Source: Scytolyngbya sp. HA4215-MV1
GTDB lineage: Bacteria > Cyanobacteriota > Cyanobacteriia > Leptolyngbyales > Leptolyngbyaceae
Assembly: GCA_019359045.1 (NCBI GenBank)
Contig: JAHHIA010000005.1
Coordinates: forward strand, 62,001-126,000
Length of the DNA: 64,000 nucleotides
Direction of reading: 5' to 3'
This document shows, piece by piece, positions 55,841 through 59,601 of this stretch (the first letter of the stretch is position 1; the number at the start of each line of letters is the position of its first letter). The translations under genes and the position numbers were made by a program. The notes under the pieces were generated by a model. That model searched no databases and was not told where the DNA came from. It saw only the letters and a program-made list of their open reading frames with translations.

Positions 55841-55879
55841 GATTTGAATAGCGCTCAGCGTTGTTCAAATCTTTTTTTT
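55841..55879 (+). terminator. Intrinsic terminator
   Basis: GATTTGAA (55841-55848), 15-base loop with an inner AGCGCT-type pairing, TTCAAATC (55864-55871) and eight T (55872-55879). It separates the microprotein unit from the riboswitch-controlled operon. Confidence 0.8.
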
Positions 55880-55984: not shown

Positions 55985-56175
55985 GTGCTAGCCTCAAAAC
56001 TTTTGGGTGTGAGTGGCACAGTTTGCCTAAAACGGGGGAACCAACTTTTGGGGCGTATTTGGGGATCAGTTGCAGAAGAGCAAAACAGTTTTTGTTTCGC
56101 CTCTGCTGGTTCCAGAAAGAGCATCTCTCAGCTCTAGCCCGTCAGCTAACCTCGTCAGCATTGGGAGGAGACTGA
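55985..56175 (+). promoter_or_regulatory. ydaO/yuaA-type (c-di-AMP) riboswitch
   Basis: Three blocks match the ydaO aptamer in order and spacing: CGGGGGAACCA (56033-56043), TTGGGGCG with GGGGATC (56048-56067) and CCGTCAGCTAACCTCG (56139-56154). The last is nearly identical to the Bacillus subtilis ydaO sequence, and GGGAGGAGAC follows as the closing strand. The variable arms form hairpins here: GCAGA...TCTGC and AGAGC...GCTCT. ydaO RNAs bind cyclic di-AMP and usually switch genes off. The boundaries are approximate. I see no terminator after it, so control may be at translation or through an unseen alternative fold. It lies about 80 bp upstream of the NrtB-like gene. Confidence 0.82.
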
Positions 56176-56257
56176 AGGAGCAGCATTTATCAATGTTGGT
56201 TTCCATCAGTGTCCTGGGTTGGTACGGTTTCAGCGTTTAGTACCTTTCGTTGACACT

Positions 56258-57112
56258 ATGGCAATTCAATTAAACTTTGCCGCGATCGCCATCGCGGGAC
56301 AGGCTGTATGGCGAAAAGCAAAACCCATTGTGGTTCGGGATGTGGTTTTGTTGCCTGCTTTTGGCTTTATTGGGGTTCTCCTGCTCTGGTGGGTAATCGC
56401 CAGCGCTCGATCTGAGCTCATTCCCACACCACCTCAGGCATTGGCTGCCAATTGGGATTACATTCTGCACCCCTTCTATCAAAGGGGTCCCGGTGATCTG
56501 GGGATCGGTTGGTTGCTGCTGGCAAGTCTGCGGCGTGTCTTGTTAGGGTTTGGGTTGGGTGCGATCGTTGCCATCCCAGTCGGCTTCCTGGTTGGGATGT
56601 CCAGATCCGCCATGCTGGCGCTTAATCCTATTATTCAGGTCTTCAAGCCTGTCTCTCCCCTGGCATGGCTCCCCATCGCTCTTGCCATCTTTAACCTGGC
56701 AGATCCTTCCGCGATTTTTGTTATCTTCATCACGTCGCTGTGGCCCACCATTATCAATACAGCTCTGGGGGTGTCCAGTGTCTCGCAAGACTATATTGAC
56801 GTGGCACGAGTGCTGGAAATGCCCCAATGGCGACGCATTACCAAAATCATTTTGCCTGCCAGTTTGCCCTATATTTTCACCGGGCTAAGAATCAGCCTGG
56901 GCATTGCTTGGCTCGTCATCGTTGCTGTAGAAATGTTGACGGGTGGTGTGGGCATTGGCTTCTTTTTGTGGGATGAATGGAGCCGTCTCAATCTCAGCTC
57001 GGTCTTTCTTGGCATTCTGGTGATTGGCGTGACTGGATTAGTGTTGGACTATGGCGTCAGCCAGATTCAAGCTTGGGTCACACATCGGAAAACGGCGAGA
57101 GCGGTGGGGTAG
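56258..57112 (+). CDS. NrtB/SsuC-type ABC transporter permease
   Basis: 284 residues, about six TM helices. The EAA-type loop is DYIDVARVLEMPQWRRITKI, followed by ILPASLPYIFTGLRISLG, and the C-terminus has GFFLWDEWSRLNLSSVFLGI, typical of nitrate/bicarbonate permeases (NrtB/CmpB) and also seen in taurine/sulfonate ones. ATG 56258 is preferred over a GTG-type start at 56219. It is the first gene of the riboswitch-controlled operon; the next starts five bases after its stop. Confidence 0.9.
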   Translation: MAIQLNFAAIAIAGQAVWRKAKPIVVRDVVLLPAFGFIGVLLLWWVIASARSELIPTPPQALAANWDYILHPFYQRGPGDLGIGWLLLASLRRVLLGFGLGAIVAIPVGFLVGMSRSAMLALNPIIQVFKPVSPLAWLPIALAIFNLADPSAIFVIFITSLWPTIINTALGVSSVSQDYIDVARVLEMPQWRRITKIILPASLPYIFTGLRISLGIAWLVIVAVEMLTGGVGIGFFLWDEWSRLNLSSVFLGILVIGVTGLVLDYGVSQIQAWVTHRKTARAVG

Positions 57113-57117
57113 AGAAA

Positions 57118-58506
57118 ATGAATCGACGTGATTTTCTCATTAGCGCCAGTGCATCGGCTACGGGCGCGGTGCTTTCGGCTTGTGCGATCGATGCGAATCG
57201 GGCACCGAAACAATTTTCGGCGGCAGCGCCGGCGATCGAGCCTGTGGTGAAACCGGAGAGCTTGGAGAAGCCGAATCTGACGATCGGCTATGTGCCGGTA
57301 AATGACTGTGCTCCGTTTGCGATCGCCTGGGAGAAAGGCCTTTTCCGCAAATATGGGTTGAATGTCAAGCTAAGTCGAGAGGCCAGTTGGGCAACCTCAC
57401 GCGATGGCATCATTTTTGGTCGGTTGGATGCTTCGCCGGTGGTATCGGGGGCGGTGACCAATGCGCGAATTGGGGCAGAGGGTGCTCGTCATGCCCCTCT
57501 GTGTGCAGCGATGACCATTCATCGACATGGCAATGCCCTAACCATGAATCGGGCAATGTGGGAAGCGGGACTGCGTCCCTGGCACGAATACAACGGGGAT
57601 CTGGCGCGGTTTGGGCAAGATTTTCGCCGCTATTTTGACCATTTACCTGCCGAAAAACGGGTTTTGGCAGTTGTGCTGAGTTCTGCCATTTATGAGTACT
57701 TTGTACGCTATCTGATTGCGGCGACGGGGGTTGACCCTGCCAGGGAGTTTCGTATCATCATTATCCCACCACCACAGATGGTCACGAATGTGCGGATTGG
57801 AGCAATGCAAGCCTATATGGTAGCGGAACCCTGGAATACACGGGCAATTACAGGGAACGAAGGAGTAGGGTTTACCTTTGCTCAGGGGCGGGAGATCTGG
57901 AGCGGACACCCCGATCGCCTATTGGGAGTCATGGAGTCGTTTATTCAAGAAAATCCCAAGACCTATCGATCGTTGGTCAAGGCAATGATTGAAGCCTGTC
58001 AATATTGCAGCAAACCGCAAAATCGGGAAGAGGTGGCAAAAATCATTTCGCAGCGATCGTTTACAGGGGCAAAACCCAAATTTACCCGTCCAGCGATTGT
58101 GGGCGACTACAATTATGGCGGCTTCGATGGCAAGTCGCGCGTTGTCTCCTCGATTGATACCACCCTCTTTTTCGACATTCCCTCCGACATTCCCGAACCA
58201 ACTGGGGCACACTCCACCTTTCTGTGGAAGTCGCAAAGCATTTGGCTCATGACCCAAGCAGCCCGATGGGGACAAATCAAAACCTTTCCCAAAAATGCGG
58301 AAGCACTGGCAAGCAAAGCCTGGAAAACGGATCTTTACCGCAGCATTGCGGCTGAGATGGGCATTTCTTGCCCCCAAGACGATTACAAAGTCGAACCGGC
58401 AGAAGTGTTTATCGACAAAAAACCGTTTGATCCTAGTGATCCAGTCGGTTACTTAAACAGTTTTGAGATCCGAGCCGATCGTCCGACTCCGATTTTCATG
58501 TCTTAG
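57118..58506 (+). CDS. NrtA/CmpA-like substrate-binding lipoprotein
   Basis: 462 residues. The N-terminus MNRRDFLISASAS with lipobox LSAC (C22) combines a twin-arginine motif and a lipoprotein signal, as in cyanobacterial NrtA/CmpA. The fold is CmpA/NrtA: LTIGYVPVNDCAPFAIAWEK, MAHAPLCAAM-like HAPLCAAMTI, GVMESFIQENPKTYRSLV and GHPDRLLGVME. The ligand, nitrate, bicarbonate or another anion, cannot be told from the sequence. It is the middle gene; the ATPase follows after 261 bp containing a repeat. Confidence 0.9.
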   Translation: MNRRDFLISASASATGAVLSACAIDANRAPKQFSAAAPAIEPVVKPESLEKPNLTIGYVPVNDCAPFAIAWEKGLFRKYGLNVKLSREASWATSRDGIIFGRLDASPVVSGAVTNARIGAEGARHAPLCAAMTIHRHGNALTMNRAMWEAGLRPWHEYNGDLARFGQDFRRYFDHLPAEKRVLAVVLSSAIYEYFVRYLIAATGVDPAREFRIIIIPPPQMVTNVRIGAMQAYMVAEPWNTRAITGNEGVGFTFAQGREIWSGHPDRLLGVMESFIQENPKTYRSLVKAMIEACQYCSKPQNREEVAKIISQRSFTGAKPKFTRPAIVGDYNYGGFDGKSRVVSSIDTTLFFDIPSDIPEPTGAHSTFLWKSQSIWLMTQAARWGQIKTFPKNAEALASKAWKTDLYRSIAAEMGISCPQDDYKVEPAEVFIDKKPFDPSDPVGYLNSFEIRADRPTPIFMS

Positions 58507-58767: not shown

Positions 58768-59601
58768 ATGGTGAAATCAAATGCTCAATTTATGGATGCT
58801 GCGCTGGCATCTGGGGAATCGGACTTTCTCGTAATCGAAAATCTGGTCAAATCCTATGCCAAAGCGGATGGCAGCCGATCGATCATTCTAGAGGATATCA
58901 ATTTAACGGTTGGTGCCAATGAATTTGTTTCCGTGATTGGGCATTCGGGTTGCGGGAAATCCACCCTCCTCAAAATTGTGGCGGGATTGGAACGGGCAAC
59001 CACTGGCTCGGTTTGGCTGGAGGGCAAAGAAGTTCGCAAGCCAGGCGCAGAGCGAATGATGGTGTTTCAACACTATTCCCTCTTGCCCTGGCTAACCGTG
59101 CGCGAAAATATTCGGCTGGCGGTGGATGAAGTGTTGGGAAGCGCGACCCGTTCAGAGAAAATCGGTATTGTCAATGAGCATCTGGCAATGGTGAATTTGA
59201 CGGATGCAGCGGACAAATACCCGGATGAAATTTCGGGCGGCATGAAGCAGCGAGTAGGGATTGCGCGGGCGCTGGCAATTCGCCCTAAGATGCTGCTAAT
59301 GGATGAACCGTTTGGGGCACTAGATGCACTGACGCGCGGTAAGTTGCAGCGTCAGGTGTTGAATATTTGGGAGAACCATCGGCAGGCGGTGATGATGATT
59401 ACCCATGATGTAGACGAGGCGTTGTATATGTCCGATCGCATCATTATGATGACGAATGGACCGTCTGCCCGCATTGGCGAGGATCTCAAAGTGCCGTTTC
59501 CCCATCCTCGTGATCGTCAAGCCATACGCCACAGTTCAGAATATTTTGACCTGCGCAACCATATTTTGAACTTCCTAGATCATTATTTTACTGAGGAATA
59601 A
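58768..59601 (+). CDS. NrtD/SsuB-type ABC transporter ATPase
   Basis: 277 residues. Walker A GHSGCGKSTLLK, Q-loop FQHYSLLPWLTV, signature ISGGMKQRVGIARA, Walker B MLLMDEPFGALDAL, H-loop MMITHDVDEAL. It powers the permease at 56258. The set is complete for a simple importer (permease, binding protein, one ATPase); the regulatory NrtC-type fused ATPase of the classical nrt operon is absent. Confidence 0.92.
   Translation: MVKSNAQFMDAALASGESDFLVIENLVKSYAKADGSRSIILEDINLTVGANEFVSVIGHSGCGKSTLLKIVAGLERATTGSVWLEGKEVRKPGAERMMVFQHYSLLPWLTVRENIRLAVDEVLGSATRSEKIGIVNEHLAMVNLTDAADKYPDEISGGMKQRVGIARALAIRPKMLLMDEPFGALDALTRGKLQRQVLNIWENHRQAVMMITHDVDEALYMSDRIIMMTNGPSARIGEDLKVPFPHPRDRQAIRHSSEYFDLRNHILNFLDHYFTEE

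Follow-up and report, generated by a model that had tools for sequence, protein, structure and literature searches.

A c-di-AMP-class riboswitch aptamer precedes a conserved cyanobacterial ABC importer operon related to nitrate and bicarbonate transporters

The stretch of Scytolyngbya DNA analysed here in its whole length of 64 kb (the window) carries a riboswitch aptamer of the c-di-AMP class directly ahead of a three-gene ABC importer operon, and the same aptamer-operon arrangement recurs in many cyanobacteria. The reading that we favour, with moderate confidence, is that the c-di-AMP riboswitch lowers the synthesis of a paralogous ABC importer of another small anion, within a cyanobacterial regulon for ion or osmotic balance. 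The aptamer class is already known; what appears to be new, as far as we have seen, is the conserved regulon, the placement of the binding protein near nitrate-sensing domains, and a fixed change in its ligand pocket.

The aptamer and its operon

A cmscan of the whole 64 kb window returned RF00379 as the only RNA family above its gathering score, matched over the full model (positions 1-134) at 56005-56175 on the + strand with 57.2 bits against a cut-off of 38 (E 1.2e-10). The segment CCGTCAGCTAACCTCG falls inside this match, and the Infernal search thus bears out the first-pass annotation, which had recognised a ydaO-type riboswitch here. As a member of this family, the RNA is predicted to bind c-di-AMP. 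It is the sole RF00379 match at E 0.001 across the 6.6 Mb genome, which also encodes a diadenylate cyclase (DAC) domain (PF02457, 133.4 bits). The aptamer ends 82 nt before the permease start codon on the same strand, that is, in leader position; alignment with relatives sets this start at the ATG at 56258, while the listed open reading frame begins with the TTG at 56219. Upstream of the aptamer, at 55841-55871, lies a terminator-like hairpin with a T tract, one such element being found against 0.8 expected by chance. The features are as follows.

56005-56175, + strand: c-di-AMP (ydaO/yuaA) riboswitch aptamer (RF00379, 57.2 bits, full model)
56167-56214, + strand: hairpin GGAGACTGA/TCAGTGTCC, beginning in the 3' flank of the aptamer (RNAalifold, 34 related leaders)
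56258-57112, + strand: NrtB-like permease (TIGR01183, ntrB, 235.8 bits, cut-off 209.05)
57118-58506, + strand: binding protein, N-terminus with twin-arginine and lipobox-like motif (Pfam NMT1_2, 218 bits)
58768-59601, + strand: NrtD-like ATPase (TIGR01184, ntrCD, 358.7 bits, cut-off 291.8)

Permease, binding protein and ATPase thus follow the aptamer in this order on one strand. The TIGR01183 match of the permease tells its family, not its substrate, and the ATPase, with 277 amino acids, is without the C-terminal domain that defines NrtC. Two further loci of the NrtA-plus-NrtC type are found elsewhere in the genome, on C31 and C14, which we take, from their pocket residues, to be nrt and cmp, respectively. 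The initial description of an NrtB/NrtA/NrtD-like importer without NrtC is right for the permease, the ATPase and the missing NrtC; the binding protein resembles the C-terminal domains of NrtC and CmpC more than NrtA, and three nitrate-contact residues are replaced in it. The span first proposed, 55985-57112, does hold the aptamer and the permease, but the operon continues to 59601.

Recurrence across cyanobacteria and other aptamer targets

RF00379 is present in 74 of 291 cyanobacterial genomes, with 110 matches, 108 of them above the cut-off, in a search whose stricter filters may have missed weak copies. For 109 of the 110 aptamers the first gene downstream could be classed (sense genes of at least 100 amino acids, longest-ORF calls): 41 precede the ABC operon, 34 a USP-like gene, 25 a CitMHS/ArsB-type transporter, two an ExoD-like gene, two a Na/H exchanger and five a target seen once. 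Counted per genome (n = 74), these are 41 for the ABC operon, 33 for USP and 25 for CitMHS. The USP label derives from one member (PF00582, 33.9 bits), another member having no Pfam match at E 0.001. The ABC operon begins with the permease in 38 of its 41 cases, with the binding protein in two and with the ATPase in one.

Starting from the protein gives a similar picture. The window's binding protein was matched at E 1e-120 or better in 44 of 284 genomes, 42 times with at least 66% identity (two of these matches cover only part of the length), and 37 of the 42 genes have an aptamer less than 2.5 kb upstream on the same strand. Among the five genes without a found aptamer, those in G039 and G008 sit at contig ends and that in G068, likewise at a contig end, has a truncated RF00379 match whose 35.9 bits fall short of the cut-off; at the loci in G048 and G062, the Rfam search returned no aptamer at E 0.1. 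Named genome contigs yielded 218 stretches encoding a relative of the binding protein, of which the best 80 were kept; by title, all are cyanobacterial except for one metagenome-assembled genome titled Tatlockia. A motif scan that recovers 104 of the 110 Rfam matches, with no antisense match in 865,848 bases, was used on these best 80 of 218 loci: the first sense ORF after the aptamer motif is the permease in 73/80 and the binding protein in 1/80. Among the remaining loci, Rfam adds an aptamer for L195, the L140 stretch starts only shortly ahead of the binding-protein gene, in L128 and L184 the aptamer lies farther upstream, beyond an additional ORF, and L183 and L197 gave no aptamer in either motif scan or Rfam search. 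The twin-arginine motif (RRxF) is found in 74/80 and the lipobox-like motif in 73/80 of the binding proteins of these best 80 of 218 loci. The genome and contig sets overlap, giving 110 binding-protein rows with 106 distinct. We argue that the link between aptamer and ABC operon is functional because it is conserved across cyanobacteria.

Decayed-looking, aptamer-led versions of the operon also occur: only a shortened ATPase is left in L056, while in L074 permease and ATPase are shortened and the binding protein is absent.

Within 5 kb on each side of the ABC operon, same-strand neighbours in the best 80 of 218 loci include a USP-like gene in 40/80, a CitMHS gene in 33/80 and an ExoD-like gene in 4/80, and in 27/80 the USP-like gene is itself preceded by a second aptamer. 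In L063, L075, L112 and others, the ABC operon is followed closely by this second c-di-AMP aptamer, with the USP-like gene directly behind it. CitMHS/ArsB-type transporters form the third main target (for example in L045, L056 and L160), which is presumably the family of slr0753, a putative chloride exporter. Minor targets are ExoD-like genes (L013, L021) and Na/H exchangers (L027, L030), with two aptamers each. One genome, G189 (L040, L060, L109), holds four c-di-AMP aptamers, two of which precede what appear, from reading the sequence, to be glycosyltransferase and alpha/beta-hydrolase genes. The window's own genome has no close CitMHS homologue (26% identity and E 3.5e-9 for the best match), so the pairing of ABC operon and CitMHS is one seen in relatives. 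Neither nirA nor cynS was found within 5 kb on either side of the operon in the best 80 of 218 loci (0/80 each), and both queries recovered their positive controls.

Placement and ligand pocket of the binding protein

What, then, does the importer carry? Among PDB sequences, the binding protein matches NrtC and CmpC chains best, at 237-239 bits and within their C-terminal domain, while NrtA (177.3) and CmpA (173.5) score lower. In a tree of 49 proteins, the riboswitch-linked binding proteins (30 full-length rows) form a clade of their own with support 100/100, which is sister (97/92) to the four proteins G116, G133, G195b and G103b; the NrtC/CmpC domains branch next (92/81). NrtA, CmpA and eight CynA are placed elsewhere, and long branches may account for the grouping of NrtA/CmpA with CynA. 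The CynA come from an operon found in 8 of 18 cynS contexts examined, which we take to be CynABD from the adjoining cynS. Hence, the protein labelled NrtA-like at first falls outside both NrtA and CmpA, closer in sequence to NrtC/CmpC C-terminal domains and four further binding proteins. At the G116 (L206) and G195b (L247) loci, a binding protein that is NrtC-domain-like rather than NrtA adjoins nirA. The G133 locus (L207) encodes permease, binding protein, NrtC and NrtD, with no nirA in the stretch read. No aptamer was found by Rfam at E 0.1 at the G116 and G133 loci.

The pocket sets the family apart further. The nitrate contacts of NrtA are Trp102, Gln155, His196, Gly240 and Lys269 (PMC13204499), and the choice of anion is set by positions 196 and 269 (PMC8786288); CmpC His409, the counterpart of NrtA His196, affects activity (PMC11349869). 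We checked the numbering by hand count via the residue spacing in the 2G29 sequence. At these positions, the window family reads W/N/Y/A/R in 30/30 tree rows and in 80/80 of the best 80 of 218 loci, which makes all 110 rows checked (106 distinct). NrtA has W/Q/H/G/K, CmpA W/N/Q/G/E and CynA W/Q/H/P/C (8/8), while NrtC and CmpC domains share W/N/H/G/K (5/5) with G116 and G133; G195b has W/N/G/G/K and G103b W/S/D/S/K. Eight nitrate-type rows (one NrtA, the five domains, G116 and G133, with G195b and G103b left out by choice) share 61 invariant columns, of which 40 are kept in the window family, 10 are switched and fixed at 97% or more, and 11 are variable. The switched-and-fixed class takes three of the four invariant columns in the pocket against seven of the 57 outside it (Fisher p 0.012, with few and dependent columns); with G195b included, column 196 is no longer invariant. 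An AlphaFold model from the binding protein and 30 close relatives reached a mean pLDDT of 51.7 and was set aside, so that the pocket is read from the sequence alignment alone. As we read it, the binding protein is related to nitrate-type proteins and was probably re-tuned to another small anion.

Several identities could be rejected: NrtA by the separate clade (100/100) and by W/N/Y/A/R in place of W102/Q155/H196/G240/K269, CmpA by Tyr and Arg at NrtA positions 196 and 269 instead of Gln and Glu, CynA by its differing pocket and clade and the absence of cynS from all of the best 80 of 218 loci, and SsuA by a TIGR01728 score of 35.3 bits against a cut-off of 163.5.

The strongest competitor holds that this is a nitrate/nitrite importer after all, with a Y/A/R pocket that binds nitrate and a c-di-AMP signal that acts directly on nitrogen uptake. 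The curated models TIGR01183 and TIGR01184, both above their cut-offs, call permease and ATPase nitrate transport, and the family groups first by G116 and G195b, which both adjoin nirA, and then by the NrtC/CmpC domains. Nitrate sensing has been reported for the CmpC domain (Li et al. 2026, cited in PMC13249358). Moreover, G195b has Gly at position 196 and adjoins nirA, so a change at 196 by itself does not exclude nitrate. Against this stand the replacement of three contact residues in all 110 rows, the absence of nirA near the operon in the best 80 of 218 loci, and another NrtA-plus-NrtC locus with an NrtA pocket in the same genome. Taken together, we regard nitrate as an unlikely substrate.

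Less probable still is the import of an organic osmolyte, glycine betaine for example, in line with other c-di-AMP targets: elsewhere, osmoprotectant transporters are among the genes under this riboswitch class (PMC9960051). However, permease and ATPase score far under the cut-offs of betaine/choline models (42 and 32.1 versus 363 and 439; 183.9 versus 326.6), and the binding protein matches NMT1_2 and no betaine-binding model. The first-pass annotation had left the choice between an osmolyte and nitrogen or carbon uptake; neither is clearly favoured by the sequence, and another small anion fits better, as three nitrate contacts are replaced in every member examined.

Mode of regulation, proposed function and known systems

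How could the aptamer act on the operon? The window has no intrinsic terminator between aptamer and permease start. Terminators in related leaders number 0/36 before permease, 0/31 before USP and 1/22 before CitMHS genes, where shuffled sequences lead one to expect 0.2, 0.15 and 0.25 (two permease, three USP and three CitMHS leaders with a gene offset below 20 or above 600 nt were left out). A terminator-based switch as in B. subtilis is therefore rejected, a terminator not being required for class membership. RNAalifold on 34 leaders found nothing conserved besides the hairpin next to the aptamer, which has 11 pairs, six with at least one both-sided change, and a covariation term of only -0.41; the counts are of sequences, not of events. 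In USP leaders, a hairpin of different sequence seems to occupy the equivalent place. In a fold model of 27 of the 34 leaders, mean Shine-Dalgarno access was 0.25 when free, 0.28 with the aptamer helix forced and 0.24 with it blocked, and so was nearly independent of that helix; mostly only three pairs could be forced, and the other seven leaders, including the window's, have no match to a Shine-Dalgarno-like or aptamer motif. The riboswitches of B. subtilis ydaO and C. glutamicum nlpC are both OFF switches, the latter acting on translation without a terminator (PMC9960051). By analogy with these two, OFF is the likeliest direction for the window riboswitch, and since no terminator was found, translational action is the likeliest mode.

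One could object that the window's aptamer has degenerated and lost its response to c-di-AMP. Its 57.2 bits are low among the 110 matches (best 85.3), several consensus positions differ in the alignment, and there is neither a terminator nor clear switching at the ribosome site. We consider such a loss improbable: the full model is matched well above the cut-off, the binding-protein gene and the operon are intact, and C. glutamicum offers a precedent for a c-di-AMP riboswitch that acts on translation without a terminator (PMC9960051).

In the mechanism we propose for a c-di-AMP-controlled small-anion importer, the leader riboswitch would set the expression of the three genes for permease, lipoprotein-like binding protein and ATPase, and at high c-di-AMP it would reduce importer synthesis. 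The importer would be a paralogue of nitrate/bicarbonate transporters lacking the NrtC-type ATPase. PII buries the NrtC domain, and SbtB is modelled to meet the CmpC domain (PMC13249358). The importer has no ATPase of the NrtC type and so no such domain for PII, or perhaps SbtB, to act on, and control by c-di-AMP at the RNA level may replace PII-type control. An anionic ligand is suggested by the shared fold family with planar-oxyanion binders and by Arg in place of the NrtA Lys; on this reading of the sequence, the anion would be small and distinct from nitrate, bicarbonate and cyanate. Together with the USP-like protein and the CitMHS/ArsB transporter, the ABC importer may form the core of a cyanobacterial c-di-AMP riboswitch regulon, whose role, judged by the company of genes, is most likely ion or osmotic balance.

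Bicarbonate or cyanate import by a CmpABCD or CynABD relative is the least probable alternative, for despite the same transporter superfamily and a CynABD that also does without NrtC, the CmpA and CynA pockets differ, both lie in other clades, and cynS is absent from the best 80 of 218 loci.

A bolder version of the small-anion proposal, which we put forward as speculation and think doubtful, is that this ABC importer takes up chloride or another halide, under joint c-di-AMP control with an slr0753-type putative chloride exporter. The changes His to Tyr, Gly to Ala and Lys to Arg all enlarge side chains, which might suit a smaller anion, and the CitMHS/ArsB exporter class is the same-strand neighbour in 33/80 of the best 80 of 218 loci. 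We know of no ABC importer for halides. The gene slr0753 was struck three times in suppressors of the chloride requirement of photosystem II, and its product is thought to be a chloride exporter (PMC9896922). If the halide proposal is true, c-di-AMP would set the anion content of the cell as well as its potassium.

More generally, c-di-AMP is known chiefly as a keeper of potassium and turgor. Its riboswitch targets are transporters in general (PMC3766115), with predictions of K+ transporters for several phyla, cyanobacteria among them (PMC6488665); in the literature available to us, slr0753 is the one cyanobacterial target described as verified (PMC10117731). The arrangement described here points to an unrecognised anion transporter and suggests anion balance alongside potassium balance. 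In the literature searched, we found no paper joining the ydaO or c-di-AMP riboswitch with nitrate, though the target may have been listed before. A conserved regulon of ABC importer, USP-like protein and anion-type transporter would tell what role c-di-AMP plays at the RNA level in cyanobacteria. Furthermore, as the operon partners are labelled nitrate transport even though the nitrate contacts are replaced, label-based counts of cyanobacterial nitrate/bicarbonate importers may be too high.

Finally, we would place the operon among known systems. Closest in regulation is the slr0753 riboswitch of Synechocystis, described as verified (PMC10117731), likewise a cyanobacterial c-di-AMP riboswitch before an anion-transporter gene; slr0753, however, is a single secondary transporter thought to export, whereas the window encodes a three-gene ABC importer. 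With NrtABCD the operon shares NrtB- and NrtD-like parts and a related binding protein, but it has no NrtC, its order is permease, binding protein, ATPase, and its binding protein resembles the C-terminal domain of NrtC more closely than it does NrtA, with Y/A/R replacing H/G/K. CmpABCD (BCT1) belongs to the same superfamily, the CmpC C-terminal domain being among the best PDB matches, yet the window has no CmpC-type ATPase and a pocket different from the W/N/Q/G/E of CmpA. CynABD-cynS, another ABC importer of the superfamily, likewise does without an NrtC-type ATPase, but it falls in another clade, has the pocket W/Q/H/P/C (8/8) and adjoins cynS. Lastly, B. subtilis ydaO/kimA and C. glutamicum nlpC share the riboswitch class, and nlpC the terminator-free action on translation, while the genes they control encode a potassium importer and a cell-wall peptidase (PMC9960051).
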